Shown one piece after another: positions 11,839-33,191 of a DNA stretch of 46,660 nt. Within the stretch, counting starts at the first letter, position 1. The number at the start of each line of letters is the position of its first letter. The notes under the pieces were generated by a model, which saw nothing but the letters and a program-made list of their open reading frames with translations, was not told the origin of the DNA and did no database searches. The DNA is from Actinomyces oris. Lineage in GTDB: Bacteria > Actinomycetota > Actinomycetes > Actinomycetales > Actinomycetaceae. The position numbers were made by a program, and so were the translations under genes. The DNA lies in assembly GCF_001929375.1 (NCBI RefSeq), contig NZ_MSGO01000013.1:1-46660 (forward strand), given 5' to 3'.

Positions 11839-11843
11839 AAGCC

Positions 11844-11870: not shown

Positions 11871-11884
11871 GCGTGCCGGTGAGG

Positions 11885-14652: not shown

Positions 14653-14755
14653 GCCAGGAGTCTACGGCTCAGTCCGCTCCAGCGGTTGGGCCGCCCATCC
14701 GGTGGTGCGCGCGGCGCCGAGGGCGGCGGTCGCGGTGTCCTGCTTGGGGTCGTTG

Positions 14756-16618: not shown

Positions 16619-16661
16619 GGGCCAAGGGTATCCAAGTGCATCGGCGGATAATGCTGGGGCT

Positions 16662-17612: not shown

Positions 17613-17712
17613 GAGCTTCTCCTGACTCGTGAAGGCACCCGTGCGCTCTGCCTGCGTTCCCGTCGACACCGGTTCTCGCGGTCGTCGCGGACAGCTGCGG
17701 CACCGCACTTCA

Positions 17713-17793
17713 GAAGGTGCCTGTTGTATCTTGACGACGCCAAAACTACAGGCACCTTCCAATTTCGGTCAAGGAGTTACGACTGGTACCTGT
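17713..17793. promoter_or_regulatory. Inverted repeat and third half-site between marR-like gene and recQ
   Basis: GAAGGTGCCTGT (17713-17724) is repeated in perfect inverted orientation as ACAGGCACCTTC (17748-17759), separated by 23 nt. A related forward copy, GGTACCTGT, follows at 17785-17793. These sites fill the 328-nt gene-free stretch between the divergent genes and are the natural candidates for autoregulatory MarR binding. A TTGACC hexamer on the minus strand lies beside the inner repeat. The binding protein is inferred. Nothing else gene-like was seen in 17613-17940. Confidence 0.45.
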
Positions 17794-17940
17794 ATGTTGT
17801 GACTCACTCTTCACCCGGTGTCTGGCCGCACCGGTCCCGGAACCGGTATCAACGACCGCAGCCGCACAGACACGTCGATGGACGTCAGTGGATTCCGGTA
17901 GCCGGCGGTGGAAGTCAGCGGCCGGCGTTAGCGTTGCAGC

Positions 17941-20247
17941 ATGTCTCAGACGACCATGACATCGGGCTCCCCAGGGACGGCCGGCCCTGTTCGTGAGCGC
18001 GCCGAGGCCGTCCTGCGCGAGCTCGTGGGTCGCAGCGACGTGCACCTGCGTGAGGACCAGTGGCGGGCGATCGAGGCGCTTGTCATCGCACGCCGCCGCG
18101 CGCTGGTGGTCCAGCGCACCGGGTGGGGCAAGTCGGCGGTGTACTTCGTGGCGACGGTCCTGCTGCGAGAGGGCTGGGGAGGCTGGCGGCCGGGAGTCCC
18201 GCCGCCCTCCCCCGGCGCGCGCGGCGGCGCCGGGGCCGGCGTCATCGTCTCGCCGCTGCTGGCCCTCATGCGTGACCAGGTCACCGCCGCAGGCCGCGCC
18301 GGGCTCCGGGCCGTGACCATGAACTCGGCCAATGTCACCCAGTGGGATGAGATTCAGGCCCAGGTGGCCGCCGGTGAGGTCGATGTCCTGCTGGTCTCCC
18401 CGGAGCGCCTCAACAACCCGGTCTTCCGCGATGAGGTGCTCCCCCATCTGGCCGCGAGCGCCGCGCTGGTCGTCATTGATGAGGCCCACTGCATCTCGGA
18501 CTGGGGCCATGACTTCCGGCCCGACTACCGGCGCATCGGCACCCTGCTGGCGGGGCTGCCGCCGCGCACCCCGGTCCTGGCGACGACGGCGACCGCGAAC
18601 CGCAGAGTCAGCGCCGACGTCGCTGAGCAGCTGGGGGCGTCCCTGGAGGAAGGCGGGGAGGGCGGCGAGCAGGTCCTGGTGCTGCGGGGGACCTTGGAGC
18701 GAGGCTCTCTCCATTTGGGGGTCAGGATGCTGCCGGATGCCGCTTCCCGCCTGGCCTGGCTGGCCGCCTACATCGGCCGTACTCCCGGCAGCGGCATCGT
18801 CTACTGCCTGACGGTCTCGGCGGCGCAGGAGATCGCCGAGTACCTGCGCTCAGCCGGCGTGGAGGTGGCCGCTTACACAGGGCAGACCGACGCCGCCGAG
18901 CGCGAGCGCCTGGAGGAGGACCTCAAGGCCAACCGGGTCAGGGCGCTGGTGGCCACCTCCGCTCTGGGAATGGGCTTCGACAAGCCGGACCTGGCCTTCG
19001 TGGTGCACGTGGGGGCTCCGTCCTCACCGGTGAGCTACTACCAGCAGGTGGGGCGCGCCGGTCGTGGTGTGGAGCGGGCCGAGGTGGTCCTGCTGCCCGG
19101 CTCGGAGGACCGGGCCATCTGGGAATGGTTCGGCTCGCAGGGCTTCCCGCCCGAGGAGCAGGTTCGCGTGGTCCTGGACGCCTTGGAGGAGCGCAGGGCC
19201 GCGGGCGGCGGGGCGGCGTCCACAGCGGTCCTGGAGACGGTGACCTCGTTGCGACGCAGCCGGCTGGAGTCCATGCTCAAGGTCCTTGACGTCGACGGCG
19301 CCGTGCGCCGGGTTCGTGGCGGCTGGGAGTCCACTGGCCAGCCCTGGTCCTATGACGCCCAGCGCTATGCGCGAGTTGATGCCGCGCGCCGGGCCGAGCA
19401 GGAGTCGATGGTCGCCTACGAGCGTCTCGGGACCGCTCCTGCCCCCGGGCAGGGATCGGTCCCCTGCCGGATGGCCTTTCTGAGGTCGGTGCTCGATGAC
19501 CCTCTTCTTGAGAGGGGGTGGCGCTGCGGGGCCTGTGACCTGTGCGGGGGCCTGGACCTGCCTGACGCCCCCGACCAGGAGCAGGTCGGTGTCGCCCGAG
19601 CGGCGCTGGGGCGCGCAGGGGTTGAGCTGCGGGCACGCCGCCAGTGGCCCACCGGGATGGAGCGGCTGGGCCTGGGCCACCTCAAGGGCCGCATCGGAGC
19701 CGACCGTCAGGCGGCGACCGGGCTGGCCGTGGGAAGACTGGATGGGCTGGGGACCTCGGTGGCGCTGCGTGAGCTGGTGGCCTCCGCCACCGACGGCGAG
19801 GTCCCGGTGTCAGTCAGACCGCAGGTGCTTGAGACGGTGGACCGGCTCGCTGAGATCATCCGCGATGAGCAGGACACCGCCGGGGAGGGCCGTCCGAGCA
19901 GGCCACCGGCCGTCGTCGTCGTGGACTCCCGCACCCGCCCCCGCATGGTCCGCCAGCTGGGGCACGCCGTGGCCACACGGCTGGGCGCGCGGGCGTTGGG
20001 CGTCGTGGGCCTGGCCGGTCAGGATCCGCCGCAGCACGATGTGGGCTCTGCATTTCGCCTGGCACAAGTGGCCCGTAGCCTGACGCTCCAGGAATGGCCG
20101 ACTCAGACCCTTGAAGAGCTGCGCGAGCGCGACGTGGTCCTCGTGGACGACTGGAGTGACTCCGGCTGGACGCTCACGACGGCGGCCTTCCTCCTGCGCG
20201 AGGCGGGGGCGGCGGCGGTCCACCCCTTCGTCCTGGCACAGAGGTAG
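17941..20247 (+). CDS. recQ: RecQ-family DNA helicase with phosphoribosyltransferase-like tail
   Basis: 768-residue ATP-dependent 3'-5' helicase for recombination and repair. Helicase domain 1 has Walker A GWGKS (61-65) and DEAH (180-183) followed by CISDWGHDFRPDY. Domain 2 has ATSALGMGFDKPD and QQVGRAGRG. A four-cysteine zinc region follows (CRMAFLRSVL, then WRCGACDLCGG). Instead of an HRDC domain, the C terminus (about 650-768) resembles a ComF/purine-type phosphoribosyltransferase fold, with VVLVDDWSDSGWTL at 732-745 matching the PRPP loop pattern. Similar fusions are remembered from other Actinobacteria. A strong hairpin overlaps its stop. Confidence 0.9.
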   Translation: MSQTTMTSGSPGTAGPVRERAEAVLRELVGRSDVHLREDQWRAIEALVIARRRALVVQRTGWGKSAVYFVATVLLREGWGGWRPGVPPPSPGARGGAGAGVIVSPLLALMRDQVTAAGRAGLRAVTMNSANVTQWDEIQAQVAAGEVDVLLVSPERLNNPVFRDEVLPHLAASAALVVIDEAHCISDWGHDFRPDYRRIGTLLAGLPPRTPVLATTATANRRVSADVAEQLGASLEEGGEGGEQVLVLRGTLERGSLHLGVRMLPDAASRLAWLAAYIGRTPGSGIVYCLTVSAAQEIAEYLRSAGVEVAAYTGQTDAAERERLEEDLKANRVRALVATSALGMGFDKPDLAFVVHVGAPSSPVSYYQQVGRAGRGVERAEVVLLPGSEDRAIWEWFGSQGFPPEEQVRVVLDALEERRAAGGGAASTAVLETVTSLRRSRLESMLKVLDVDGAVRRVRGGWESTGQPWSYDAQRYARVDAARRAEQESMVAYERLGTAPAPGQGSVPCRMAFLRSVLDDPLLERGWRCGACDLCGGLDLPDAPDQEQVGVARAALGRAGVELRARRQWPTGMERLGLGHLKGRIGADRQAATGLAVGRLDGLGTSVALRELVASATDGEVPVSVRPQVLETVDRLAEIIRDEQDTAGEGRPSRPPAVVVVDSRTRPRMVRQLGHAVATRLGARALGVVGLAGQDPPQHDVGSAFRLAQVARSLTLQEWPTQTLEELRERDVVLVDDWSDSGWTLTTAAFLLREAGAAAVHPFVLAQR

Positions 20248-20290
20248 GGGCCGGTGGGCACTGCCTCACCAGGCATCGCCCACCGGCCCC
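20247..20290. terminator. Bidirectional hairpin terminator between recQ and the glycosidase-like gene
   Basis: A 13-bp perfect stem, GGGGCCGGTGGGC (20247-20259) with GCCCACCGGCCCC (20278-20290), encloses a second 5-bp stem (TGCCT and AGGCA). It occupies nearly the whole space between two convergent stop codons and should act in both directions. Confidence 0.75.
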
Positions 20291-20296
20291 GGCGTT

Positions 20297-21790
20297 CTAG
20301 AGACCAGTGGCGACGGCGGCCAGCGACGGAGCCACCTGGCCCCCAGGGGTTCCGACCTGATCCTCGAGGTAATACCACCAGAAGGGGGCCCCCCAGGCGT
20401 CGGACCGCCCCAGCGCCGCGCCGGTGACGTGCTCGGCGACGGCGGTGCGGGCCACCACGGGGTCGGAGGCCGAGCCGAACCACCAGGGGCCGGCGTTGAG
20501 GTCCGCTCCCCCGTACCCGAGCTCGGTCACGGCGATCCGGGAGGAGGAGAAGACGGACTCCAGGGTGCTCAGGACCCGGTCAGCGGCTGTGCCCAGCGGA
20601 TGGAGCTGGGGGTAGACGGACAGTCCCACGACGTCGACCAGCTCCCTGACCGACGCGGGGATCTCCCTGGCGGCATAGCTGAACAGGGAGTACGTCGGGT
20701 CCGCCTGCCCGAACTGGTAGTACAGGGTCAGCACGGTCGTCGCGCTGGTGCGCTCGCGCACCGCCTTAGCCGCTCGCTGGGCCTTGGCCACCGGCCCGGT
20801 GCCCAGCCAGTCCCCACCGATCTCGTTACCGACCTCCCAGGCATCGACGTTGGGAAGCGCCTTGATGAGGGCGTCGACCCGCGTGTCCCAGGCGGAGTCG
20901 GTCAGGGCTGCCAGGTCGTGGGAGTCGCAGATCTGAGCCAGGGCCTGACCGCCCTGCGCGTGCAGGGCCTCCATCGTGCTGCGCCAGCCGGCCATCTCCT
21001 CGGCGTCATCGGGGTCACCGATCACCAGACGGGCCGAAACCTTCCGCTTGCCGCCTCCGGGGCCGCTGGGGGCCAGTGCGGCGGCGACCTCCGCGGACGT
21101 GGGCACCCGGGTGAAGGTCACCCCGATGACGGCGTCCTTCGGCGCCTGAGCGGCCAGCGCCCGGTCCAGGGAGAGCTGAGCCCCGGCGGCCGCCTCCAGG
21201 GCGGAGTTCGCCAGGCGACCCCGCTCCGTCCAGGACTGGGCCTTGGAGCAGGCATCCAGGGACTGCTGGGCGGAGGCGTGCAGCTTTCCCGCCTCGTCAG
21301 CGCCCTTGAAGCCCTTCGCAGTGGCCTGCTGGAGGCGCTCGGGCTGCCTCTCGTGGAGGGTTCGGGCCGCCAGCTCCAGGAGATCGTGCTCGCCGGAGGC
21401 CGGCAGATCCGCCATGAGTGCCGAGTACCCGTGGCTGGTCGGCCACGACATGGTCAGAGTGCACTCACGCCCGGAAGGCACATCGATGCCGATGGCACCG
21501 CCCTCGTCCTGGTAGAGGGGGCCGACGGCGATGACCTCCAGGGTCTTGGCATCCAGCAGCGCGTCGTCATAGCCGACCTCGCCCTTGCCGTTGGACTGAA
21601 TGCGTCGCAGCGCCTCGAGGTTGAGGGCGTTGCCCTGAGCATCACTGATGTGAAGACTCAGGTGGCTGGTCGCCCCGTCCCCCATGGCCGGCGGGGTCAT
21701 GTTCGCGTGCCCGCAGGAGGACACTGACGCTCCCAGAATGCCAGTACCCAGAAGCGCCAGCATCCTCCTACGGTTGGTCTCGAATGTCAT
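20297..21790 (-). CDS. Secreted glycosidase-like lipoprotein (clan GH-A-like)
   Basis: 497-residue exported protein. The N terminus combines a Tat-like NRRRMLALLG with a lipobox SVSSC (lipid-modified Cys26), so it is probably anchored outside the membrane. Residues 30-220 form an N-terminal region without recognised motifs. The C-terminal 280 residues look like a TIM-barrel glycoside hydrolase: WEVGNE (Glu323 as acid/base) and IAVTELGYGG (Glu423 as nucleophile), spaced as in clan GH-A. It lies 94 nt after the exopolysaccharide operon, beyond a hairpin, and probably has its own promoter. It may trim or release the polymer made by that operon. Family and substrate are unassigned. Confidence 0.7.
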   Translation of the reverse strand: MTFETNRRRMLALLGTGILGASVSSCGHANMTPPAMGDGATSHLSLHISDAQGNALNLEALRRIQSNGKGEVGYDDALLDAKTLEVIAVGPLYQDEGGAIGIDVPSGRECTLTMSWPTSHGYSALMADLPASGEHDLLELAARTLHERQPERLQQATAKGFKGADEAGKLHASAQQSLDACSKAQSWTERGRLANSALEAAAGAQLSLDRALAAQAPKDAVIGVTFTRVPTSAEVAAALAPSGPGGGKRKVSARLVIGDPDDAEEMAGWRSTMEALHAQGGQALAQICDSHDLAALTDSAWDTRVDALIKALPNVDAWEVGNEIGGDWLGTGPVAKAQRAAKAVRERTSATTVLTLYYQFGQADPTYSLFSYAAREIPASVRELVDVVGLSVYPQLHPLGTAADRVLSTLESVFSSSRIAVTELGYGGADLNAGPWWFGSASDPVVARTAVAEHVTGAALGRSDAWGAPFWWYYLEDQVGTPGGQVAPSLAAVATGL

Positions 21791-21867
21791 GGAAGCAGTA
21801 TTCCAGTTTTCGGGGAGACATTCCGACCGAATGGTCCTCTTTTCGTGATTCCGGAGACGTTAAATCT

Positions 21868-21883
21868 CACAGTCGGCACTGTG
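21868..21883 (-). terminator. Hairpin closing the exopolysaccharide operon
   Basis: On the minus strand CACAGT-GCCG-ACTGTG forms a perfect 6-bp stem with a 4-nt loop, beginning two nt after the DUF2334 gene stop and followed by AGATTTAA. It separates the five-gene operon from the glycosidase-like gene downstream. Confidence 0.5.
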
Positions 21884-21884
21884 G

Positions 21885-23840
21885 TCATCTCAGCTCCGAG
21901 GCCGGCACGAAGGTGTACCCCTCGGCCTTGATGCCGGCGACAATCTTCTTCAGCTCGGCCAGCGGGTAGTAGGGGTGGAAGAAGAAGCTGGCGGTGGCGT
22001 GAGTGTTGACCAGGTTGAGCTTGGCGGCGTCGATGATCTCCTGGGCCAGGCGCGGCGGGTGCTGGTTGATCTCGTTGGGCTCGAAGTTGCCCAGGTTCTC
22101 AGGCAGGACGTGGGTCCCGTAGGGGTCGTTGACCGCGTAGGGGAAGAACTGCCCGTAGTAGTCGAACGGACCGGCCTGAGTGCTGGTCAGGGTACCGGCG
22201 TAGAGGAGCTCGCGCTCGTAGCGCACCGAGTAGTGCTCGCCCATGCCGTAGTAGGCCTCACGGGTGGCCGAGTAGTGCGGGGTCTCGAAGATCTCCGGAG
22301 TCGGCAGACCGACCTCCCCGAAGATCTGGCGTCCCTGATCCACGCGGTCGGCTGCCCATGCCTGGGAGGTACCCGGCAGGGCTCCTCCGATCTGGACGAA
22401 GGACTTGTCCTGGCAGTCGACGGCCGGGGCCTTGGTGTCGTTGGTGGTCGAGCACCACGAGCGGATGAACTCGAAGTCGTCGGCGGAGACGGCGTTGTAC
22501 GGGTTGTCCAGTTTGCCGAACTGGTGGGTGGTGCCGTGCTGGACGATCGTTCCGCCCTTCTTCACGGCGTCCTTGAGGACGGCCACCAGCTCCGGGGAGT
22601 CCTCAAGGGTGAGGTCCTTGCGCTGGCCGTTGTTCTCGGTGCCCTTGGGGTCGGTGTAAATGGGCACCACCGCCATCTGGAAGGGCACCTTCTGGCTGTA
22701 GAAGTAGTCGACGATCGCCTGCAGCTCCTCGGGGTCGCTGTCCGGGGTCACGTCCTCCAGGCGCACAGCGGCCTGACGGTACTGCTCAGCACTGGGCTGA
22801 AGCACGTCCAGGAGGATGTCGGCAGCAGCGATGTAGCGGTCCTGCTCACCCAGGTAGGTCAGGGGGATCTCGCCGATGAAAGTCAGTCCGGAGGAGCTGA
22901 CCGCCCAGGGGAAGGAGCTGGTGCCGGACTGGGCGATGGAGGCGCAGGGGGTGGCCGCGCCGTCGGGCTTGGAGCACTCGGCGCGCCCCAGGACCTTGAC
23001 GTCCTTCTCGCGGGTGATGTGCGGGGCGATGATCCCACCGGTGTTGAGCTCGTTGCGCTTCAGGGAGGCGCCGTTGTAGCTGATCTTGGTGACCCGGTCG
23101 GTGGAGTCGATGTAGGAGGTGGCGGCGTCCCAGCCGTAGCGCTGGGTGAAGGCGGCGCGGTCGGCGTCGGTCTTGGTCAGCTGCCAGATGTTGAAGCCGG
23201 ACCACATGACCGGGATGTTGCCGGTGAGGGCGTCGTCGATGAAGGCCCGGGGCAACGGCTCGTCGTAGGTGGAGCCGATGTAGACCACGTTGGTGAAACG
23301 TCCGGCGAGGCCCGCCACGTAGTCCTTGACGGGAAGGGTGGTGACGGTTCCGGAGTGGCTGGCCAGGGTGCCCATGCTCAGGGCGTAGTACTCCCCCAGC
23401 TTGGCGTAGGCACCGGTGGTGTCGAACAGGACCAGGGTCGATGCAGGTCCCGCCTCCTGGTTGGAGAAGGTCACCGCGCCGGCAGGAACCTCGGGCGCGT
23501 TCTGCTTCAGGTCACGGATCTTGACCTGTCCTGCGGCGGGCGCGGGCTTGTTGAGGTCGACGTCGGCCTGCTTGTCCTCCTTGAGGGGGAGCTCCTTCTT
23601 GGCCGCTGCGGCAGGCTCGGGCGGAGCCGGAAGCGGCTTCTTGGCCGGGTCGGCGTCGTTGACCTGGGCTCCGTCGGCGGGCTTGGCCGCGGCGGCCTGG
23701 ACCGCGACGGGAGGCTGCACGCCGGCGGTGGGCGCGGCCTGGGCGGGGCCGACTGCGGCGATGGAGCTGCCCAGGCACACCGCGATGGCGGCCAGTGCGC
23801 AGCGGCGTCGTCGTGCAGACACAAGGGTCGGAAGGTTCAT
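21885..23840 (-). CDS. Secreted DUF2334 / NodB-like polysaccharide deacetylase
   Basis: 651-residue exported protein with an N-terminal signal peptide (RRRRCALAAIAVCLG, cleavage expected after AQA near residue 35), then a Pro/Ala/Lys-rich spacer to about 105. A folded region of unknown type follows (about 130-340). The DUF2334 domain begins near VRLEDVTPDSDPEEL (360-) and carries the HGTTH (435-439) metal-binding type motif of polysaccharide deacetylases, with an Asp in LEDV. ATG 23840 has AGGAG five nt upstream and overlaps the epimerase stop (ATGA). It likely removes acetyl groups from the exported polymer, as IcaB or PgaB do for poly-GlcNAc. The exact reaction is inferred. Confidence 0.82.
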   Translation of the reverse strand: MNLPTLVSARRRRCALAAIAVCLGSSIAAVGPAQAAPTAGVQPPVAVQAAAAKPADGAQVNDADPAKKPLPAPPEPAAAAKKELPLKEDKQADVDLNKPAPAAGQVKIRDLKQNAPEVPAGAVTFSNQEAGPASTLVLFDTTGAYAKLGEYYALSMGTLASHSGTVTTLPVKDYVAGLAGRFTNVVYIGSTYDEPLPRAFIDDALTGNIPVMWSGFNIWQLTKTDADRAAFTQRYGWDAATSYIDSTDRVTKISYNGASLKRNELNTGGIIAPHITREKDVKVLGRAECSKPDGAATPCASIAQSGTSSFPWAVSSSGLTFIGEIPLTYLGEQDRYIAAADILLDVLQPSAEQYRQAAVRLEDVTPDSDPEELQAIVDYFYSQKVPFQMAVVPIYTDPKGTENNGQRKDLTLEDSPELVAVLKDAVKKGGTIVQHGTTHQFGKLDNPYNAVSADDFEFIRSWCSTTNDTKAPAVDCQDKSFVQIGGALPGTSQAWAADRVDQGRQIFGEVGLPTPEIFETPHYSATREAYYGMGEHYSVRYERELLYAGTLTSTQAGPFDYYGQFFPYAVNDPYGTHVLPENLGNFEPNEINQHPPRLAQEIIDAAKLNLVNTHATASFFFHPYYPLAELKKIVAGIKAEGYTFVPASELR

Positions 23841-25039
23841 GAACACTCCTTGGTTGAGGTGGGAACAGGTTCAAACTCGGGAAGGGGGGCACCGCGGCCG
23901 AACAGGGCGGCGGTGGCGGCCAGGATGCGCTTGCACGCATGTCCGTCGCCGTAGGGGTTGGCGGCCTGAGCCATGGCCGTGTAGGCCGCCTCGTCGGTCA
24001 GCAGGGTGGAGACCCTCTCGACGATGCGGTCCTCGTCGGTTCCGACCAGCTCGGCGACCCCGAAGGCGACGGCCTCGGGACGCTCGGTGTTGTCCCGCAT
24101 GACCAGGACGGGCTTGGACAGCGCGGGGGCCTCCTCCTGCACGCCGCCGGAGTCGGTGAGCACGACGTCACAGCGGTCGATGAGCGCGCAGAAGGCGCCG
24201 TACTCCAGCGGGTCGCACCAGATGACGTTGGCGTGGCCCTCGATCTGCGGCAGAAGGTCCTCGCGAACCTTGGGATTGCGGTGGACCGGCAGCACGAAGA
24301 GCACCTCGGGGTGCTTGGCGGCCAGGCGCGCGACGGCGCGGCCGATGGCCTGCATCGGCTCGCCCCAGGACTCACGGCGGTGGGCGGTGACGAGCACGAC
24401 TCGCCGGGAGGAGTCCTTCAGCGCTGCTGCCAGATCCTCATCCGGTGGCGGGACCCGACGGTCGACAGCGACCAGGAGCGCATCGATAACCGTGTTGCCC
24501 GTGACGCTGACGCACTGCGGGTCGGTGCTCTCGCGCAGCAGGTTGTCCCGGCTGGTGGTGGTGGGGCACAGGTGCAGCGTGGTCACCTGGCTGATGAGCC
24601 GCCGGTTGGCCTCCTCGGGGAAGGGTGAGGAGATGTCCCCGGTGCGCAGACCGGCCTCGACGTGGAGGACTGGCACCTCGTGGTAGAAGGCCGCCAGCGC
24701 GGCGGCGAAGGCGGAGGTGGTGTCCCCCTGGACGACGACGGCGTCGGGGCGATGGGCCTCGATCGCCTGCCCCACCCCTTGCAGGCAGCGGTTGGTGATC
24801 TGGGTGAGGGTCTGCCCCGGCGAGTGGATGTCGAGGTCGTCGTCGGGCACGATGCCGAAGAACTCGTGCACCTGGTCGAGCATCTCACGGTGCTGTCCGG
24901 TGACGACGACGATGGGGGCGAAGCGCTGGTCGTCGCGCATGGCGGCCACCAGGGGGGCGAGCTTGATCGCCTCCGGGCGGGTGCCGTAAACGAGCATGAC
25001 CCTTAAGGGGCCGCCCGTTTGCGTGGAGTCGGTGGTCAT
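23837..25039 (-). CDS. wecB: UDP-N-acetylglucosamine 2-epimerase (non-hydrolysing)
   Basis: 400-residue cytoplasmic enzyme interconverting UDP-GlcNAc and UDP-ManNAc. Diagnostic segments are GTRPEAIK (19-26), the QGDTTSAFAAAL region, the UDP-binding TDSGGVQEEAP (about residue 300) and NPYGDGHACKRI near the C terminus. AGGAG lies six nt before the ATG. It overlaps the start of the deacetylase gene by 4 nt and follows the lectin-like gene after 84 nt. Inside this operon it probably supplies UDP-ManNAc to the synthase. A role in another cell-wall glycan is also possible. Confidence 0.93.
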   Translation of the reverse strand: MTTDSTQTGGPLRVMLVYGTRPEAIKLAPLVAAMRDDQRFAPIVVVTGQHREMLDQVHEFFGIVPDDDLDIHSPGQTLTQITNRCLQGVGQAIEAHRPDAVVVQGDTTSAFAAALAAFYHEVPVLHVEAGLRTGDISSPFPEEANRRLISQVTTLHLCPTTTSRDNLLRESTDPQCVSVTGNTVIDALLVAVDRRVPPPDEDLAAALKDSSRRVVLVTAHRRESWGEPMQAIGRAVARLAAKHPEVLFVLPVHRNPKVREDLLPQIEGHANVIWCDPLEYGAFCALIDRCDVVLTDSGGVQEEAPALSKPVLVMRDNTERPEAVAFGVAELVGTDEDRIVERVSTLLTDEAAYTAMAQAANPYGDGHACKRILAATAALFGRGAPLPEFEPVPTSTKECS

Positions 25040-25123
25040 GGGGTTCTCCTGGTCGTGTGTCGGGAGTGGGACGAGATGGGCCTCAGTGGTGGTCGAGTCC
25101 AGCGCCGTCGAGGAGGACAGGCC

Positions 25124-25849
25124 TTACTTGTCCTCGATGATCGGGGTGAAGGTGACGTCGGAGTCCTCGCAGTAGGCCGCCACCTTGCCGGAGCGGTAGG
25201 GGGACTGCTTGTCGGCGACGGTTCCGAGCCCCTGCCCGTCCACGGTGATGGTGAAGGTGGCCTCTGAGGGCTTGGTTGTATCAATGGTGACGGTGACGTC
25301 GTGGCTCTCCCCGGGTGGGTAGACGGGTGTATTGCCGGATGACAGGAATCGCTGGTACCCCGGGTAGGCGGTGTCCTGCTTGGAGACCTCCCAGCCGTTG
25401 GGCTTGAGGGCAAGGGCGTAGAAGTGGTTGTTGTCGGTGTAGTTCCACAGGAGCCAGGCGACCTCCCACGCATTGGGCTCGCCGTCCTCTCGCAGCTGCC
25501 TGACAGTGGTCATCGTGGTGTGGATGGTCTGAACGCCTCCGGCCTCGATCTCGACCGTGGTGGAGGTGGCCAGACCGGCGTGGGTCGTGTCATGGGAATT
25601 GGCCGACGTCGGCTTGAGGCGCAGCAGGCCATCGGAGCACGAGGCCTCGCCATAACCGTCGAAGATGATCTCCCACTGGGAGCAGTCCGGGGTCTCTGTC
25701 TCTGTCTCTGTCTCTCGGGCGTGGCAGTACACGGTGACTCCTAGGACCAGTGCCAGGACGCAGCCCGTCAGAAGGGCACGACGCAGAATCCTGCCGCGAC
25801 GAGATCCGTCGATAACTCCTGCGTGCTGAGGCGCGTTGGCAACTGTCAT
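25124..25849 (-). CDS. Membrane-anchored lectin/laminin-G-like protein
   Basis: 241-residue protein with a short cytoplasmic N terminus, one membrane helix (about residues 24-43, RRALLTGCVLALVLGVTVYC) and an extracytoplasmic domain. That domain (about 55-241) has the alternating pattern of a concanavalin A-like beta-sandwich, with WLLWNYTDNNHFYALALKPNGWE and TVTIDTTKPSEATFTITVDGQG resembling LamG or DUF1080-type folds. Two cysteines (DCSQWE and ASCSDG) could pair. A run of Glu-Thr dipeptides encoded by a hexanucleotide repeat joins helix and domain. Its start overlaps the synthase stop. It may bind the nascent polymer. No catalytic residues were identified. Confidence 0.65.
   Translation of the reverse strand: MTVANAPQHAGVIDGSRRGRILRRALLTGCVLALVLGVTVYCHARETETETETPDCSQWEIIFDGYGEASCSDGLLRLKPTSANSHDTTHAGLATSTTVEIEAGGVQTIHTTMTTVRQLREDGEPNAWEVAWLLWNYTDNNHFYALALKPNGWEVSKQDTAYPGYQRFLSSGNTPVYPPGESHDVTVTIDTTKPSEATFTITVDGQGLGTVADKQSPYRSGKVAAYCEDSDVTFTPIIEDK
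25692..25715. repeat. Hexanucleotide microsatellite (GTCTCT)x4
   Basis: Four perfect tandem copies of GTCTCT on the plus strand, read as GAGACA on the coding strand, encode four Glu-Thr pairs just after the membrane helix of the lectin-like protein. A change in copy number would alter linker length without shifting frame. Confidence 0.9.
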
Positions 25850-27411
25850 CTCATCTCCTCATTGGTCAGGTTGCTGGCTGTGGGACGGGGACGGCGCACG
25901 ATCACGGCAGTGGGGTTCAACAGGGGGCGGGCCGGGACGGCCGGAACAGCCGGGACAGCACTGCCTGGACCTGCGGCCCGGGGGGCGGCGAGGGGCTCCA
26001 CCCTCGCCGGTCCGCTGGGCGGCCGCTGCTTGATCGGTACCGATGAGCCCACGGCTGCTGATCCGTTGGAGCCGGCAGTCGGCCTGCTGGGCGCGCCCTG
26101 CTGATCCGGCTCCGCCTCCCGAGCGGTCTTGGCCCACCCGGTGCGTCCGGTCAGCTCCCGAGCGACTGCTCGCCAGCCGTAGAGACTGGGAAGGAGGCCG
26201 TAGAGGACGAACAGGTGCGCGTAGCCCACGGCCTTGAGCAGGTTCAGACCCTCGCTGCGCTCGATGCGCCAGTAGATCCAGGCGTAGATGAGTGCCGGAC
26301 CGAAGGCGATGACGTAGGCCCCCACGAGCCATGCCCATGACTGATCCCACCTCAGGACCACGGCCACACCGGCGGTCACCATGGTGATGAGGAAGGACAG
26401 GGTCAGCAGGGACCCGGTCAGGAGCAGATAGGGAGTGAGGATCTGCCAGAGCGTGTCGGCGCGCCCCAGGCCATGCTGCTCTCGGGCGACGGAGCGCAGC
26501 AGGTGCAGTGCCTGGAGGTTTCCCTGGAACCAGCGGGTGCGCTGACGCATGAGGCGGCGCATGTTGGTCACACCCTGCTGGTGAACGGAGGCCGCGGGCC
26601 AGAACTCGTTGGTCCAGCTGGTGGCGTTGAGCCGGATACCCAGGTCGAAGTCCTCGGTCAGCGACCGGGTCCAGGGCCGGGGCCCCAGGGCGTCGAGAGC
26701 GCTGAGGCGGACGAACTGGGCGTTGCCGCCCATGCCGACGCTGCGGACTCGGCGCCGTCCTCGCTGAAAGACCTCGGTGAAGATCACGAACTCCATGTCC
26801 TGCATACGGGCGAGCAGGGAGCCGAAGCGGTTGTTGATGCGCACCCCCATCTGGACGGCGCCGACCTCCTGCGGGGCGAATGCCTTGCGCACCTCCGCGA
26901 TGGCGTGGGGGTCGAGCCTGCCGTCGGCGTCCATGACTCCCACGACGACTCGCGAGGAGGACACCGTGGTGCATCGGGAGCGCACGATTGACAGCGCGTC
27001 ATTGAGGGCCTCCCCCTTGCCCAGGCGGGCGCGAGGCGGACGACGGCGAACCACCTCGACACGCTCATCGCCGGCCTGAGCGGCCATCTGGGCGGTGTCG
27101 TCGTCGGAGCCGTCGTCGATGACCATGATGCGCAGGCCCGGGTCCGGGATCGAGGTGAGCCGTCTGACACTGGCGCCAATGACCTCCGCCTCATTGAGGC
27201 AGGGCATGAGGATGACGACGAGCAGCGGCGCATCCGGGTGCGAGGGCCCGCTGTGCCGTGGGGCGCCGCGCGAAGCGATGAGCATGAAGAGGGTGTAGGC
27301 GAGAGCGACTGCGATCATCCCCAGGGCGCCCCACCAACCGATGCGGTCGAGGATTCCCAGGAGGCTCGAGGAATCGAAGCTCATAGGCAGGAACAGGGAC
27401 TGCGTCCTCAT
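25846..27411 (-). CDS. Processive family-2 glycosyltransferase (exopolysaccharide synthase)
   Basis: 521-residue membrane synthase. One N-terminal helix (about 27-47) is followed by a GT-A domain with DDGSDDD (about 99-105), a DADG metal site (about 160), TEDFDLG catalytic acid region and QRTRWFQGN, the QxxRW motif of processive synthases such as PgaC/IcaA, cellulose and hyaluronan synthases. Three or four C-terminal helices probably form the export pore. A Pro/Ala/Gly-rich cytoplasmic tail of about 80 residues ends the protein. ATG 27411 overlaps the preceding gene's stop by one base. With the adjacent epimerase and deacetylase, the product is probably an N-acetylhexosamine polymer; sugar and linkage are not determined. 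Confidence 0.9.
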   Translation of the reverse strand: MRTQSLFLPMSFDSSSLLGILDRIGWWGALGMIAVALAYTLFMLIASRGAPRHSGPSHPDAPLLVVILMPCLNEAEVIGASVRRLTSIPDPGLRIMVIDDGSDDDTAQMAAQAGDERVEVVRRRPPRARLGKGEALNDALSIVRSRCTTVSSSRVVVGVMDADGRLDPHAIAEVRKAFAPQEVGAVQMGVRINNRFGSLLARMQDMEFVIFTEVFQRGRRRVRSVGMGGNAQFVRLSALDALGPRPWTRSLTEDFDLGIRLNATSWTNEFWPAASVHQQGVTNMRRLMRQRTRWFQGNLQALHLLRSVAREQHGLGRADTLWQILTPYLLLTGSLLTLSFLITMVTAGVAVVLRWDQSWAWLVGAYVIAFGPALIYAWIYWRIERSEGLNLLKAVGYAHLFVLYGLLPSLYGWRAVARELTGRTGWAKTAREAEPDQQGAPSRPTAGSNGSAAVGSSVPIKQRPPSGPARVEPLAAPRAAGPGSAVPAVPAVPARPLLNPTAVIVRRPRPTASNLTNEEMR

Positions 27412-27806
27412 CACGCTCGCAGACTCATCAGGCCGCTGCGCTGCTGGACGTGACGTCCAGCGGTGCGCCTGGGGTGCGGGAGCAGGGCGCGAGCCGCACC
27501 ATAGAGATTGGTCAGCAGGAAGAAGACCAGGATGGCGACGAACACCAAGCCGGCGCAGTCAATGAGGAAACGAGCGACGAGAGCGGGAGGGGAACCTGCC
27601 GGGGCGACGTACCACACGACGAACAGTCCGGTTCCGGCAGCGAATGGGGAGTAGTGCATGAGGCCATCCATCTGGATCCAAGGGGTAGGGCCGGCTCCGA
27701 CCGTCATCACCGCATGCGCGAGCAGTTCCAGTCGGCGCCAACGCCTCGGTGCGACGCGCCCGGGGATGACGGGATGTGGGAACTCAGCCCGTCGGGCACG
27801 GCGCAC
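27411..27806 (-). CDS. Small two-helix membrane protein (PgaD-like by context)
   Basis: 131-residue protein with two predicted membrane helices (about 50-68, PFAAGTGLFVVWYVA, and 80-103, LIDCAGLVFVAILVFFLLTNLY) and Arg-rich ends. Size, topology and position directly before the processive glycosyltransferase match PgaD/IcaD-type auxiliary subunits, although no sequence motif proves this. The GTG at 27806 lies only about 10 nt from the predicted transcription start, so translation may begin near the mRNA 5' end or at an internal ATG such as MTVGAGPTPW. The stop overlaps the synthase start (TGATG). It is the first gene of the exopolysaccharide operon. Confidence 0.65.
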   Translation of the reverse strand: MRRARRAEFPHPVIPGRVAPRRWRRLELLAHAVMTVGAGPTPWIQMDGLMHYSPFAAGTGLFVVWYVAPAGSPPALVARFLIDCAGLVFVAILVFFLLTNLYGAARALLPHPRRTAGRHVQQRSGLMSLRA

Positions 27807-27821
27807 CGTGCGTCATCGCCA

Positions 27822-27849
27822 AATATAACAATAGAGTAACGCTTTGCAA
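27822..27849 (-). promoter_or_regulatory. Sigma-A-like promoter of the exopolysaccharide operon
   Basis: On the minus strand TTGCAA (27849-27844) and TATATT (27827-27822) are separated by 16 nt, close to the -35 and -10 consensus. They lie in the most AT-rich stretch of the region, just upstream of the first operon gene. Transcription would start near 27814-27816. The remaining intergenic DNA to 28036 shows no clear gene. Confidence 0.5.
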
Positions 27850-28036
27850 CACTGTGTCATTCGACCATGCAATGCGCACCCTCTTGGAGATGGCTCACAA
27901 GAGCTGAAGGCGGCGGGATTCCACCAATCGAACCGCCAATGAACCCGGGGGTCGCAGCACCCCATCCCCTGACGCATCAGGAGATGGTCACGAGCAGGTC
28001 ACAGAACGGTCTCAACAGGTCTGTTCAGCAGCCTTT

Positions 28037-29377
28037 TCACCGCCTTCGGGCGCGGGCCGCCTCACCATGGGCGGGCAGATCCTCGCAGCTCGCCAGGACC
28101 TCCAGCGCAGGTGTCATGGCCTCCAGGGCGCTCGCACTGTACTCGATGAGCTGGACCGGTTTGAGGAAGGACATCACGCTCAGTCCGGCCGCGAACCTGG
28201 CGGTCCCACCGGTGGGCAGGACATGGTTGGAGCCGGCCAGGTAGTCCCCCAGGGGCACAGGACTGTAGGGCCCGACGAAGATGGCTCCGGCGTTACGGAT
28301 CCGACGCGCGACCTGCGGGGCGTCGGAGGTGTGGATCTCCAGGTGCTCAGCCGCGTAGGCGTCGGCGACCTCGATGGCCTGCGTGAGGTCGCTCACCAGG
28401 ACGGTTCCCGACTGCGGACCCCTCAATGCGGTCGATGCCCGCTCCCGGTGCCGGGTCGCGCTGAGTCTGCGCTCGAGCGCCGCATCGACGGCGTCGGCCA
28501 GCTCCGGGGAGTCGGTGATGAGGACACTGCCGGCATTGGGATCGTGCTCCGCCTGGGAGAGCAGGTCGGCGGCCACGTACTCGGGGTCGGCCCCGGCGTC
28601 GGCCAGGACGGCGATCTCGGTAGGACCCGCCTCGGCATCGATACCGACCGTCCCCATGACGGCTCGCTTGGCGGCCGCCACGTAGACGTTGCCGGGACCG
28701 GTGATGACGTCCACGCCCCGGCACAGGACCTCTCCCCCGGCATCCGCACGATCGGTGTCGTCCTGGGCGTCGGCGCCGTAGGCGAGCATCGCGATGGCCT
28801 GGGCGCCGCCGACGGCGTAGACCTCGGTGATCCCCAGCAGCGCGCACGCCGCCAGGATCGTGGGGTGGGGCAGACCGGCGAACTCGGCCTGAGGCGGGCT
28901 GGCCAGGGCGATCTGCTCGACGCCGGCGACCTGGGCGGCCACCGCGTTCATCACCACGCTGGAGGGGTAGACGGCCAGCCCTCCGGGAACGTAGAGCCCG
29001 ACCCGTTCGACGGGGATCCAGCGCTGGGTGACGGTGCCTCCGGGGACCACCTCCGCGGTGCGCTCGGTGGGAACCTGGGCGGTGTGCCCGGCCCGGTTGT
29101 GGGCGATGGACATCTCGAGGGCCTCGCGCACCGAGGGGTCCAGGTCGTTGAGCGCCTGGGCGATGGCAGCAGCGGGAACACGCAGGTGAACGGGTCGCAC
29201 GCCGTCGAAGCGCTCGGCGGCGTCGCGCAGTGCGGCCGCGCCACGGGATCGGACGTCCTCGATCAGTGGAGCCACTGCGGCCTGGGCGGAGGTGACGTCG
29301 AGGGCGGCCCGGGGCAGGGCCTGAGCCAGCTGGCGTGCAGAGAGTCGGGTGCGGCGCAGATCAGTGCGGGTGAGCAT
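28037..29377 (-). CDS. hisD: Histidinol dehydrogenase HisD
   Basis: Zinc- and NAD-dependent enzyme oxidising histidinol to histidine in two steps. The 446-residue product has GLYVPGGLAVYPSSVVMNA, the substrate/zinc residues in GPGNVYVAAAKR, LLSQAEHDPNAGS and AEHLEIHT, and the C-terminal SNHVLPTGGTARF. Start taken at ATG 29377 (MLTRTDLRRT). It shares strand and orientation with hisC, hisB, hisH and hisA, but is separated from hisC by 13.4 kb holding the exopolysaccharide locus, recQ and the antiporter. A strong hairpin separates it from metE upstream, so it probably has its own promoter. Confidence 0.95.
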   Translation of the reverse strand: MLTRTDLRRTRLSARQLAQALPRAALDVTSAQAAVAPLIEDVRSRGAAALRDAAERFDGVRPVHLRVPAAAIAQALNDLDPSVREALEMSIAHNRAGHTAQVPTERTAEVVPGGTVTQRWIPVERVGLYVPGGLAVYPSSVVMNAVAAQVAGVEQIALASPPQAEFAGLPHPTILAACALLGITEVYAVGGAQAIAMLAYGADAQDDTDRADAGGEVLCRGVDVITGPGNVYVAAAKRAVMGTVGIDAEAGPTEIAVLADAGADPEYVAADLLSQAEHDPNAGSVLITDSPELADAVDAALERRLSATRHRERASTALRGPQSGTVLVSDLTQAIEVADAYAAEHLEIHTSDAPQVARRIRNAGAIFVGPYSPVPLGDYLAGSNHVLPTGGTARFAAGLSVMSFLKPVQLIEYSASALEAMTPALEVLASCEDLPAHGEAARARRR

Positions 29378-29466: not shown

Positions 29467-31860
29467 TCATCGGGCCTCGCGCACGGAGCGGGCGGCGCCG
29501 ACCAGGCTGGTCAGGCTCGCCTCGGTCTCGGCGTAGGCGCGGGTCTTGAGACCGCAGTCGGGGTTGACCCAGACCTTCTCTGCGCCCAGGGCCTCGACGG
29601 CCCGCTGGAGCAGCTCGGTGCACTCGGCCTGGCTGGGCACGCGCGGGGAGTGGATGTCCCACACCCCCGGGCCGAGCTGGCGCTCGAAGCCGTGCTCGGC
29701 CACCGCGGGGAGGATATCCATGCGCGAACGGGAGGCCTCGATGGAGGTCACGTCGGCGTCGAGGTGGTCGACCGCGTCGATGACGACGTCGAACTCCGAG
29801 TAGCACAGGTGGGTGTGGATCTGGGTGGCGGGTGCGGCGCCCCCGGTGGCCAGGCGGAAGGAGCCGACGGACCACTCCAGATAGGCGGGGCGGTCGGCGC
29901 GCCGCAGTGGGAGGGTCTCGCGGATGGCGGGCTCATCGACCTGGATGACGCCGATGCCCGCGGCCTCGAGGTCCGCCACCTCCTCGCGCAGGGCCAGGCC
30001 CAGCTGGTCGGCGACCTGGGCGCGCGGGATGTCGTCGCGCACGAAGGACCAGGCCATGATCGTCACCGGGCCGGTGAGCATGCCCTTGAGGGGCTTGTCG
30101 GTCAGGGACTGGGCGTAGGCCGACCAGGCGACCGTCATGGGCTCGGGGCGGGCGACGTCACCCCACAGGATGGAGGGGCGGGTGCAGCGCGAGCCGTAGG
30201 ACTGGACCCAGCCGTGCTCCGTGGTCACGAAGCCGTAGAGCAGCTCGGCGAAGTACTGGACCATGTCGTTGCGCTCGGCCTCGCCGTGAACCAGGACATC
30301 CAGGCCGAGGCGCTCCTGAAGGGCGACGACGCTGGCGATCTCGGCGCGCATGGCGGCGTCGTAGGCGGCGTCGTCGATCTCGCCCTTGCGCCAGGCGGCC
30401 CGGGCCTTACGGATCTCAGCGGTCTGGGGGAAGGAACCGATGGTGGTGGTGGGAAGCTCGGGAAGGCCGAGGCGCTCGTCCTGGGCCGCCTTGCGCTCGG
30501 CATAGGGGGCGCGGGTGCGGTCGGCGTCCGTGACGGCCTCGACGGCGGCGCGGACCTCGTCGCGGTGCACGCCCGGGTGGGCGGCACGCTGCTTGCGCAG
30601 GTCGGCGTCCTGGGCCAGTTCTGCGGCAATGGCGTCACGGCCCTGCTCCAGGCCCTTGGCCAGGGTGATGACCTCGCCGACCTTCTGATCGGCGAAGGCG
30701 AGCCAGGAGCGGATCTCCGGGTCGATGGCGGTCTCGCGCTCGACATCGTGCGGCACGTGCTGCAAGGAGGTGGAGGTCGCCACGGTGATGGGGGTGCCCT
30801 CGGGAAGGCGCTCGCGCAGCTGCTCGAGCACATCCATGGCCCGGTTCAGGTCGGTGCGCCAGATGTTGCGTCCTGAGACGACACCGGCGACGACGGTCTT
30901 GCCCTCCAGGGCGGCCAGGTCGCCGGCCTCGGGCAGGGCGCCGGCCACGAGGTCGAGGCCCACGGCCTCGATCGGGGCCTGAGCGAGCACGGGCAGGGCG
31001 TCGCCCAGGGAGCCGTAGGTTCCGGCCACCAGGATCTGGGGGCGCTCCACGATGGCCCCCAGCCAGGTATAGGCGTCGCGCACGGCGTCGAGGACCCGCT
31101 GACGCCCCACGTTCCAGGAGTCGGAGACCAGGGCGGGCTCGTCGAGCTGGACCCAGGTGGCACCGGCCTCGTACAGGTCCATGAGGAGGTGGCCATAGGC
31201 GTGCAGGACGTCGCTGAGACGGTCCAGGGGGTGGAAGTCCTCGGCCGCCTCGTCGGAGGGCTTGGCCATGAACAGGTAGCTCACCGGTCCCACGACGACC
31301 GGGCGCACCTCGGTCCCGGTGGCCTTGGCCTCGCGGACCTGGTCGGCGATGGCGGTGTCGACGTAGTCGATGGGGGTGGAGGCGTCGATCTCGGGGACCA
31401 GGTAGTGGTAGTTGGAGTCCAGCCACTTGGTCATCTCCATGGCCGGGCGGGCTCCCTCACCGCGGGCCAGCGTGAAGTAGCCCTCGACGTCGAGGGCGCC
31501 ATCGGCGTTCAGCAGGTCGCGGAAGCGGGCGGGCGCGGCCCCCAGGGTGGCGGTCACCTGAAGAACCTGGTCGTAGAGAGTGAAGTCCGCCGGCACCGAG
31601 GCGGGCTGAGTCAGTCCCAGGTCCGTCAGGCGCGAGCGGGTCGCCCCGCGCAGCTCGGCAGCGGCGTGCCTGAGCTCATCGGCGCTCAGGTCCCCCTTCC
31701 AGAAGGACTCCACGGCGCGTTTGAGCTCGCGGTCCCTTCCGATTCGGGGGTACCCCAGAATGGTGGCCCCCGGCAGGGGGGTGGAGGGGACCTGCGACTC
31801 GGTCACGGCGATCTCAGCCGGTGAGGCGGGGGCGACGACCGACTCAGGGGTGGCGCTCAT
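29467..31860 (-). CDS. metE: Cobalamin-independent methionine synthase MetE
   Basis: Transfers the methyl group of 5-methyl-tetrahydropteroyl-glutamate to homocysteine without B12. The 797-residue product has the two-barrel layout. The N-terminal folate domain has ATILGYPRIGRDRELKRAVE. The catalytic C-terminal half has LPTTTIGSFPQT, zinc ligands His and Cys in IHTHLCYSEF, and Cys in VNPDCGLKTR. Its ATG overlaps the metF stop by 4 nt, so the two methyl-cycle genes are coupled and both lie under the SAM riboswitch upstream of metF. The 28-residue N-terminal extension is Pro/Ser/Thr-rich. Confidence 0.97.
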   Translation of the reverse strand: MSATPESVVAPASPAEIAVTESQVPSTPLPGATILGYPRIGRDRELKRAVESFWKGDLSADELRHAAAELRGATRSRLTDLGLTQPASVPADFTLYDQVLQVTATLGAAPARFRDLLNADGALDVEGYFTLARGEGARPAMEMTKWLDSNYHYLVPEIDASTPIDYVDTAIADQVREAKATGTEVRPVVVGPVSYLFMAKPSDEAAEDFHPLDRLSDVLHAYGHLLMDLYEAGATWVQLDEPALVSDSWNVGRQRVLDAVRDAYTWLGAIVERPQILVAGTYGSLGDALPVLAQAPIEAVGLDLVAGALPEAGDLAALEGKTVVAGVVSGRNIWRTDLNRAMDVLEQLRERLPEGTPITVATSTSLQHVPHDVERETAIDPEIRSWLAFADQKVGEVITLAKGLEQGRDAIAAELAQDADLRKQRAAHPGVHRDEVRAAVEAVTDADRTRAPYAERKAAQDERLGLPELPTTTIGSFPQTAEIRKARAAWRKGEIDDAAYDAAMRAEIASVVALQERLGLDVLVHGEAERNDMVQYFAELLYGFVTTEHGWVQSYGSRCTRPSILWGDVARPEPMTVAWSAYAQSLTDKPLKGMLTGPVTIMAWSFVRDDIPRAQVADQLGLALREEVADLEAAGIGVIQVDEPAIRETLPLRRADRPAYLEWSVGSFRLATGGAAPATQIHTHLCYSEFDVVIDAVDHLDADVTSIEASRSRMDILPAVAEHGFERQLGPGVWDIHSPRVPSQAECTELLQRAVEALGAEKVWVNPDCGLKTRAYAETEASLTSLVGAARSVREAR

Positions 31861-33038
31861 GCGTTCTCCTTGGTGATGGTGGTGTGGGGCTGGACGGGGT
31901 GGCGGGAAGACAGTGCTGCACCGGGAGATCCGCAGCGCAGGAAGGAGGGGCCTCGGCCGGGGGTGGCCTGGAGGTATCCGCGATCGACGGCGTCGCGCAC
32001 CTCCCGGTCGGGCGCGGCTCCGGCCAGGATGCCACCCAGACGCAGGTGGCTGATGACGTCGAGGGCCGGACGGGTGCGGTTGAAGGTGTACAGGTGCAGT
32101 CCGGGGGCCCCGGCGCGCAGCAGCGCGGTGGCCAGGTCGAGTGTCGCACCGATGCCGCGTTCCACAAGGGTGGCGCCGCTGGCCGATCCCAGCGTGGAAC
32201 GCAGGCCGGCGGGCACACGCACTCCGGTGAGCGCCTCAAGGCGGGTGAGCCGACGCAGGTCGGTCAGCGGGATCACCCCGGGAAGGATCGGGATGCTCAC
32301 CCCCGCGTAGGAGGCCGCGTTGGTCAGCGCCACGTAGTCGGCCGCGTCGTAGAACACCTGGGTGATCGCCATATCGGCTCCGGCGGCCTGCTTGGCGGCC
32401 AGGACCTCGATGGCCTCGATGTGGTCGCTGGTGGCCGGGTAGGCGGCCACGGCGATCGTGACGTGGCGTCTGCTGTCACCGAAGAAGTCGGTCTCAACCT
32501 CCCGGATGACCCGGACGAGGTCGTCGGCGTGGCGCAGCTCTCCGGCGACGTCGTCGGCCCGGGTACCGGCCGGCGGGTCACCGCGTAGAGCGAGGAAGCG
32601 CCGTACTCCCATCCGAAGGAAGCGGGTGACGATGTCGACGGCCTCCTGCTTGCGGTAGCCGATGCAGGTCAGGTGCGCCATGAGGGGAATGGTGCTGGAC
32701 TCCAGCACGTGGGCGAGCACGCACTCGGAGGGATTGGTCTGCTCCTGGACCGCCCGTACACGGGGCGCGATGCCGCACCGGTTCCCCTCATATTCATCGC
32801 CGCTGTCCCCGCCTGCGGGGTCGGTGACGAAGGTGGGCCGGTAGGTCACCGAGACGAAGTCCGGTCCGGTGGCCAGGAGCCTGTCAATGCGGCCCCAGGT
32901 GGCGGAGGCGGCCTTACCCGGACGCGGAGGGAAGAGCTCCAGGCTGACGGTGGGCAGTCGCCGGGCGCTTCCGGTCTCGGTGCTGCTCAAGGCGTCGCCG
33001 CGACTCCCTGCCGCAGCGGTGGGCTCATTGTCTCGCAC
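31857..33038 (-). CDS. metF: 5,10-methylenetetrahydrofolate reductase MetF
   Basis: Flavoprotein that reduces methylene-THF to methyl-THF, the methyl donor for MetE. The 393-residue product has the barrel motifs SLELFPPRPGKA (N-terminal Glu), FVSVTYRP, MAHLTCIGYRK, RRFLALRGDPP, AAYPATSDH and ITQVFYDAADY. It is longer than the roughly 300-residue family norm because of an N-terminal extension, an insert near DPAGGDSGDEYEG and a C-terminal tail. The GTG at 33038 was chosen because GGAG lies five nt upstream and the riboswitch aptamer ends there. The frame is open to 33137, but that part is riboswitch RNA. It overlaps metE. Confidence 0.93.
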   Translation of the reverse strand: MRDNEPTAAAGSRGDALSSTETGSARRLPTVSLELFPPRPGKAASATWGRIDRLLATGPDFVSVTYRPTFVTDPAGGDSGDEYEGNRCGIAPRVRAVQEQTNPSECVLAHVLESSTIPLMAHLTCIGYRKQEAVDIVTRFLRMGVRRFLALRGDPPAGTRADDVAGELRHADDLVRVIREVETDFFGDSRRHVTIAVAAYPATSDHIEAIEVLAAKQAAGADMAITQVFYDAADYVALTNAASYAGVSIPILPGVIPLTDLRRLTRLEALTGVRVPAGLRSTLGSASGATLVERGIGATLDLATALLRAGAPGLHLYTFNRTRPALDVISHLRLGGILAGAAPDREVRDAVDRGYLQATPGRGPSFLRCGSPGAALSSRHPVQPHTTITKENA

Positions 33039-33043
33039 ATCGT

Positions 33044-33124: not shown

Positions 33125-33191
33125 TCGAGCGTATCAAACCACGACTGTTTCCCAGCCCCGCCGCCGTCCCACATAGCGAGAGCTGCTCCGT

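Follow-up and report, generated by a model that had tools for sequence, protein, structure and literature searches.

Background

The described systems closest to the locus presented here are synthase-dependent exopolysaccharide systems. The Pga and Ica systems combine a family 2 glycosyltransferase (GT2) with a small membrane partner (PgaD or IcaD) and an extracellular deacetylase of the CE4 type (PgaB or IcaB), PgaB being annotated both as a deacetylase and as a glycoside hydrolase (GH). The Nfr system of Escherichia coli (NfrB, NfrA, YbcH and WecB) includes an outer-membrane protein; its processive GT2, NfrB, requires WecB, and its product, termed NGR, has been proposed to be a polymer of N-acetylmannosamine (ManNAc) (PMC8669472, PMC8669469). 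The Listeria polysaccharide Pss has a beta-1,4-ManNAc chain together with galactose (PMC11439720), and its system includes a BcsB-like protein, PssD, and a GGDEF-type receptor, PssE (PMC4125290). Streptomyces MatAB makes poly-N-acetylglucosamine (PNAG) by means of a GT2-deacetylase fusion (PMC5972031). The subject of this analysis is a locus of Actinomyces oris, within positions 1 to 46,660 of contig NZ_MSGO01000013.1 (assembly GCF_001929375.1), a stretch of 46,660 nucleotides termed here the window: it is a six-gene operon of an oral Actinomyces and appears to produce a coat of sugar polymer, probably one based on ManNAc, and also to trim and retain it.

The six genes lie on one strand in the order small membrane protein, GT2, lectin-like protein, WecB-type epimerase, DUF2334 protein and GH-like protein (Table 1). 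A first-pass annotation, made by a model from the letters of the window, had placed the first five exactly where they are found here; as an account of the whole operon it was incomplete, having overlooked an exported glycosidase-like gene of clan GH-A. Its further claim, that the set matches no nameable system, holds: the operon lacks defining features of Pga/Ica, Nfr and Pss and differs from MatAB and from the glycosyltransferases associated with XrtP. In the open-access literature, covered by the titles and beginnings of abstracts that the searches listed (subscription papers being outside this scope), no description of this gene set was recognised and no paper joining DUF2334 with an exopolysaccharide was found; the one paper on DUF2334 by itself is unrelated to judge from its title, and XrtP did not occur in the papers listed for it. 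Because the gene set works like Pga/Ica, Pss and Nfr, yet lacks defining features of each, it is classified here as a variant of synthase-dependent exopolysaccharide systems.

With Pga/Ica the operon shares a GT2 synthase and a predicted extracellular deacetylase, and its small membrane protein resembles IcaD and PgaD in position and size. However, the synthase scores below the PgaC_IcaA cut-off, a DUF2334 protein replaces the CE4 enzyme, and the epimerase and a protein with a predicted CBM66-like fold are additions of this operon. The parallel to Ica/Pga drawn in the first-pass annotation survives for synthase, small partner and exported deacetylase-like protein, the last of which is not of the CE4 type. 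In the Nfr system the accessory protein YbcH belongs to the DUF4434 family, which forms a TIM barrel, and may be likened to the barrel-type GH-like accessory of this operon. A processive GT2 and a dependence on WecB are also common to both, the latter being described for E. coli in PMC8669472; here an epimerase within the operon, which passes the cut-off of TIGR00236 (462.7 against 210.15 bits), makes WecB available. Yet NfrB carries an MshEN domain, which a Pfam search did not match in the operon synthase, and the two enzymes are only 22% identical over 246 amino acids (E 0.007); moreover, the annotated nfrBA-ybcH operon has no deacetylase and its epimerase is encoded outside, whereas both lie inside the operon here.

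The likeness to Listeria Pss, also proposed at first pass, is a loose one: a Gram-positive host, a GT2 synthase and a ManNAc product (here a predicted one) are common to both, but none of the six operon proteins matches the BcsB family at E values up to 1 and none has a GGDEF domain by Pfam. MatAB is likewise actinobacterial and likewise joins a GT2 to a deacetylase, and so resembles the GT2-DUF2334 fusions of relatives described below; however, MatB contains a CE4 domain, GT2 and deacetylase are separate in the operon, and neither an epimerase nor a lectin-like gene is mentioned in the consulted portion of the MatAB report (PMC5972031). As for the XrtP-associated glycosyltransferases (NF053846), these form the curated GT2 family nearest by score, yet the operon synthase reaches 281.2 bits where the cut-off is 520, and the lectin, DUF2334 and GH-like queries had no match at two true XrtP-type loci (L053, L054).

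Results and discussion

A conserved four-gene core

The operon and its conserved core almost certainly form a real unit. Within the genus, a GT2 match of at least 57% identity occurs in 22 of 37 genomes and a DUF2334 match in 21 of 37, the operon GT2 being 93-94% identical to those of two of these genomes (G009, G003). Each of the 21 other same-genus loci has the GT2, lectin-like, epimerase and GH-like genes, and 20 have DUF2334. In congeners the position of hisD varies (before, between or after the operon genes) and the remaining genes stay clustered. Apparent two-frame splits, which could be assembly errors or decay, affect the GH-like gene of A. ruminis (L099), the GT2 tail of L089, and DUF2334 in L120 and L110.

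A search of genome contigs with a profile of the lectin family (A5) found 134 relatives, and the counts that follow rest on the best 80 of these 134 loci, in which the lectin is present by construction and GT2 membership was called at 150 bits or more; some loci are short contigs, on which absences are not real losses. Among the 80, a GT2 is found in 56, the epimerase in 62, DUF2334 in 52 and the GH-like gene in 18, and the four-gene core (GT2, lectin, WecB-type epimerase and DUF2334) is complete in 48. These 48 loci show nine gene arrangements (a tenth, from L109, mixes its two tandem copies and is not counted), and the median of their spans is 5.7 kb; the cluster has therefore been held together despite reshuffling. 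As a rough estimate, chance would place the one or two WecB genes of a 4-Mb genome within any particular 20-kb stretch in about 1% of cases. Within 25 hand-picked representative loci the four core families each recur in 21 to 25 and, once frames overlapping core genes are excluded, every other family occurs in at most 4; the remaining clusters of at least six representative loci are frames overlapping core genes, apart from two frames of one six-locus cluster.

Hosts of the 48 complete-core loci include Actinomyces, Actinobaculum, Peptidiphaga, Kocuria, Corynebacterium, Parafrankia, Kutzneria, Streptomyces, Kitasatospora, Actinomadura, Geodermatophilus and one Thermoflexaceae bacterium of Chloroflexota. 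Synteny, which the first-pass annotation had suggested looking for across Actinomycetales, is thus found in many other actinobacterial families and in one Chloroflexota genome. Within the phylum the lectin is nonetheless rare: 5 of 396 evenly drawn genomes have an A5 match, one of them weak, and DUF2334 occurs in 10 of the 396, which include all four genomes with a strong lectin match (three of these from one family). Two complete tandem copies of GT2-lectin-epimerase-DUF2334 occupy positions 8544-20017 of the Kocuria rosea locus L109.

The small membrane protein

A small open reading frame with a strong transmembrane segment ends directly before the GT2 gene in 51 of 55 testable loci from more than a dozen genera (L123, at a contig end, is left out; many loci are related, so that the 51 are not independent). 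Such frames precede 3 of 65 epimerase genes, 0 of 59 DUF2334 genes, 0 of 18 GH-like genes and 22 of 2200 random positions (1%), which strengthens the earlier suggestion of a small partner beside the synthase. In roughly half of the genus the small protein has diverged too far to be recognised by BLAST: tblastn recovered its gene in 11 of the 21 same-genus loci, and a hydrophobic small frame lies upstream of GT2 in 20, the twenty-first (L037) being among the 11. Pfam and NCBIfam searches with it gave no match, and an alignment of 22 small proteins has a common pattern around an A-R...A-G..F core. It is likely a partner of the synthase, to judge from its conserved position.

The predicted DUF2334 deacetylase

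The only Pfam family of this protein is PF10096 (4e-48), without CE4. In a hand-picked alignment of 27 DUF2334 sequences the catalytic-type residues E364, D365 and H441 are present in 27 of 27 and H437 and H624 in 25 of 27. Compared by sequence alone, the order E364-D365, H437xxxH441, H624 resembles that of the base, metal and acid residues of Agd3, the deacetylase of Aspergillus GAG (family CE18), and of the PelA deacetylase domain (family CE21) (PMC7229062, PMC13254593), Glu364 replacing the Asp that serves as base in those enzymes. Agd3 and the PelA domain have an additional N-terminal domain, and the DUF2334 protein likewise seems to carry a Rossmann-like region at its N-terminus; the Pel synthase, in contrast, is of a different type from the operon GT2.

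Gene fusions link this family to its neighbours. In two genomes of the phylum (L078, L080) deacetylase and lectin domain share a single open frame of 800-825 amino acids, and in L079 the lectin lies right behind the deacetylase, in another frame. In four further genomes of the phylum (L170-L173; Pfam confirmed one, L170) DUF2334 is fused to a GT2, and three of these four stretches hold a WecB-type epimerase. These two kinds of fusion argue that synthase, deacetylase and lectin share one substrate. For two other DUF2334 genomes (L174, L175), no other family of the system was found within the short stretches searched.

The lectin-like and GH-like proteins

The lectin-like protein is likely a binder rather than an enzyme. 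Its family conserves eight invariant polar residues (R120, N126, E129, K149, E154, Q166, E228, D229), and it is here that an alternative has to be weighed, namely that the protein is a lyase or hydrolase of concanavalin fold that acts on the polymer, the rest of the system being unchanged. So many invariant polar residues suggest a demanding site, and relatives in two genomes pass the Pfam 3keto-disac_hyd cut-off (49.9 and 30.1 against 26.8 bits), so that the family may include enzymes; an enzymatic role is nevertheless judged unlikely for the operon protein. No substrate is assigned from the ranks of the fold searches, because numerous proteins of concanavalin or barrel fold have nearly equal scores there; families outside the ranked list are also possible. 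Homology of the lectin to E. coli YbcH, NfrA or PgaC was dismissed (best E 0.35), and profile searches of solved structures with the lectin, deacetylase and GH-like proteins gave nothing relevant.

The GH-like protein is predicted to be glycosidase-like, of clan GH-A: the modelled barrel and residue conservation show a Glu following Asn where strand 4 ends and another Glu at the end of strand 7, as is characteristic of that clan. No GH family is assigned, the best Pfam match being GH53 at an E value of 0.09. The idea that it is an unrelated downstream gene was rejected, as all 21 of the 21 loci from the genus retain it, even where hisD moved; that it is a universal core member was rejected as well, given its presence in only 18 of the 80 lectin loci. 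It lies near DUF2334 and/or lectin genes in three genomes from other families of the order, and L082, from a different genus in the family, has a weak match (48 bits) but no other system genes in its stretch. One congener (G028; L081, 7754-9283) retains the gene beside hisD, and searches there for GT2, WecB and DUF2334 were negative.

Which sugar is polymerized

Three lines of evidence point towards ManNAc, none of which proves it: (i) the frequency of the epimerase among lectin loci (62 of 80), (ii) the presence of WecB elsewhere in genomes whose loci have no epimerase (5 of the 56 GT2 loci have none in the stretch, and all five genomes carry WecB at another place), and (iii) an association of the lectin family with NfrB-like synthases. 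Regarding the third, this GT2 is missing from 24 of the lectin loci. An NfrB-like synthase occurs in 13 of them (with 34-40% identity over 481-527 amino acids in 11 and as a partial match in two), accompanied by an epimerase in 11 of the 13; the remaining 11 loci, many of which are short contigs, show neither gene. The NfrB-linked loci are of Methylocystis (L111, L113, L114, L118, L119, L122, L125) and of Gemmatimonas type (L134, L142, L146, L150, L152), together with L158; in L114, the one locus looked at more closely, a TPR protein also resembles NfrA_C, though below the cut-off (18.7 against 25 bits). Such loci are probably Nfr-type ManNAc-polymer loci outside the enterobacteria. The first-pass suggestion that the in-operon epimerase points to ManNAc gains from this pairing of the lectin family with NfrB-like synthases and, mostly, WecB (PMC8669472, PMC8669469), and on balance the evidence favours a product that contains ManNAc.

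The chief competing account of the sugar is that the polymer is a homopolymer of N-acetylglucosamine (GlcNAc), similar to PNAG, and that the epimerase mainly serves another pathway or balances UDP-sugars. Five of the 56 GT2 loci do lack an epimerase in the stretch, a Streptomyces GT2-deacetylase fusion does make PNAG (PMC5972031), and PgaC/IcaA (TIGR03937) is the characterised synthase family that the operon GT2 matches best, at 89.4 bits; but that score is far under the cut-off of 422.3 bits, the epimerase is present in 62 of 80 lectin loci, and in other loci the lectin accompanies NfrB-like synthases together with WecB. A GlcNAc homopolymer is judged improbable.

Several further observations weigh against the favoured reading. 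The source genome (G000) has a second, lower-scoring WecB (261 bits; contig 37, 14106-15173), and the operon epimerase is therefore not the sole source of UDP-ManNAc; WecB is found in 33 of 37 genus genomes, with copies of this second type common in congeners without the operon, and because so many genomes carry WecB anyway, its presence elsewhere is a weak test. In one of two XrtP-type loci (L053; 4674-5429 and 7743-9539) a frame for a WecB-type epimerase (with 57% identity over a part) lies within about 3 kb of the GT2, so that other systems, too, can have an epimerase clustered with the synthase. The stretch of L106 has neither epimerase nor DUF2334, A. gerencseriae (L042/L101) is without DUF2334, and in L159 and L160 the exchanges of H437 for E and of H624 for D possibly leave the deacetylase inactive or altered. 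The strain CCUG 34288, which we take to be the same as ATCC 27044, carries the operon (L086). ATCC 27044 was reported to form no substantial viscous material (PMC3557718); if the two strains are one, the presence of the operon alone does not yield a viscous culture. Mannose makes up 77.5% of the neutral sugars of the A. oris K20 exopolysaccharide, for which the consulted sugar table lists no amino sugars (PMC3557718); this is the only composition analysis of an A. oris exopolysaccharide found in the open-access literature.

Predicted polymer synthesis and proposed mechanism

The synthase residues D, D, TED and QxxRW are unchanged across 19 aligned rows, and its PgaC/IcaA score far exceeds those against HpnI (12.5 bits) and dolichyl-phosphate hexose transferase (13.3 bits), in keeping with the first-pass assignment to the polymer type rather than to ceramide or dolichol glycosyltransferases. 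By score, the nearest curated family is not IcaA but the XrtP-associated one. That the GT2 adds sugar to a carrier lipid or protein, as XrtP-associated enzymes may, and makes no long polymer is very improbable: that family gives the best curated match, two XrtP GT2s group with two GT2s of this system (support 92/88, in a tree of 41 hand-picked rows where the placement of E. coli references is unsure owing to long branches) and L053 has its nearby epimerase frame, but the NF053846 cut-off is far from reached, its QxxRW and TED motifs do not vary, a polymer would suit the presence of a deacetylase, a CBM-like protein and a small partner, and no exosortase was noticed among the operon genes, though no search was aimed at exosortases.

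The system very probably serves exopolysaccharide synthesis and deacetylation. Gene content, catalytic residues, predicted folds, clustering and fusions were obtained directly, and from them we infer every step of the following scheme, which is probably right for this synthase-dependent machine. The epimerase would convert UDP-GlcNAc to UDP-ManNAc; the GT2, with the small membrane protein, would link ManNAc (alone or with GlcNAc) by beta linkages, as suggested by the inverting chemistry of GT2 enzymes and by the GH-A fold, and would thread the chain through the membrane. Outside, the exported DUF2334 enzyme would strip part of the acetyl groups, leaving positively charged amines, and the membrane-anchored CBM66-fold protein would grip the chain at the cell surface, either presenting it to the deacetylase or retaining it as a coat. 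Chains may be cut or released by the GH-A enzyme, which is an accessory of certain lineages.

A broader proposal, which is tentative and has the odds somewhat against it, is that Actinobacteria and at least one Chloroflexota outlier possess machinery dedicated to poly-ManNAc in partly deacetylated form, that is, a cationic coat of polymannosamine type undescribed in the literature searched, and that a CBM66-fold adaptor marks ManNAc polymers in Gram-positive as well as (Nfr-type) Gram-negative bacteria. If so, about 5-8 kb would encode the means to supply the sugar, to synthesise, deacetylate and bind the polymer and, in some cases, to cut it; the uncharacterised DUF2334 family would have a role; and a lectin-like family would be linked to ManNAc polymers in Gram-positive and Gram-negative bacteria alike and could be used as a signature for locating them. 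Actinomyces, which are early tooth colonisers, would share with Kocuria, Corynebacterium, Streptomyces and others an unrecognised matrix-polymer system, and it would become possible to test genetically what the Actinomyces biofilm matrix is made of.

Genomic setting

Table 1. Genes of the operon and the promoter-like site, in window coordinates
Feature	Position	Strand	Basis or remark
Small membrane protein	27411..27659	-	82 amino acids from ATG 27659 (likely start); frame open from GTG 27806
GT2 processive-type glycosyltransferase, predicted polymer synthase	25846..27414	-	Pfam/NCBIfam; invariant catalytic motifs; tree
Membrane-anchored carbohydrate-binding-like protein of predicted CBM66-like fold ("lectin")	25124..25849	-	
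Non-hydrolysing UDP-GlcNAc 2-epimerase, WecB type, predicted UDP-ManNAc supply	23837..25039	-	TIGR00236
Exported DUF2334 polysaccharide deacetylase (predicted)	21885..23846	-	PF10096 4e-48; hydrophobic N-terminus
Exported clan GH-A glycosidase-like protein	20297..21790	-	Lipobox spotted by eye in the sequence
Promoter-like site TTGCAA-16-TATATT with TG extension	27822..27849	-	Between hisD and the operon; weak evidence

The promoter-like site is the sole one in 20150-28200, where shuffled sequence has a mean of 0.4. A hisD-like gene lies upstream on the operon strand and a helicase-like gene lies downstream in convergent orientation (both named from reading the sequence). Three further ideas were rejected: control by a GGDEF protein (a GGDEF search of the whole source assembly gave none), a known defence role (the five non-epimerase proteins had no PADLOC match) and control by a known riboswitch. 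The sole Rfam match in the window is a SAM riboswitch (RF00162, 46.0 bits) at 33034-33127 on the minus strand, which lies at the beginning of a metF-like open reading frame (31857-33137) ahead of a metE-like one (29467-31860), these names too being taken from the sequence.

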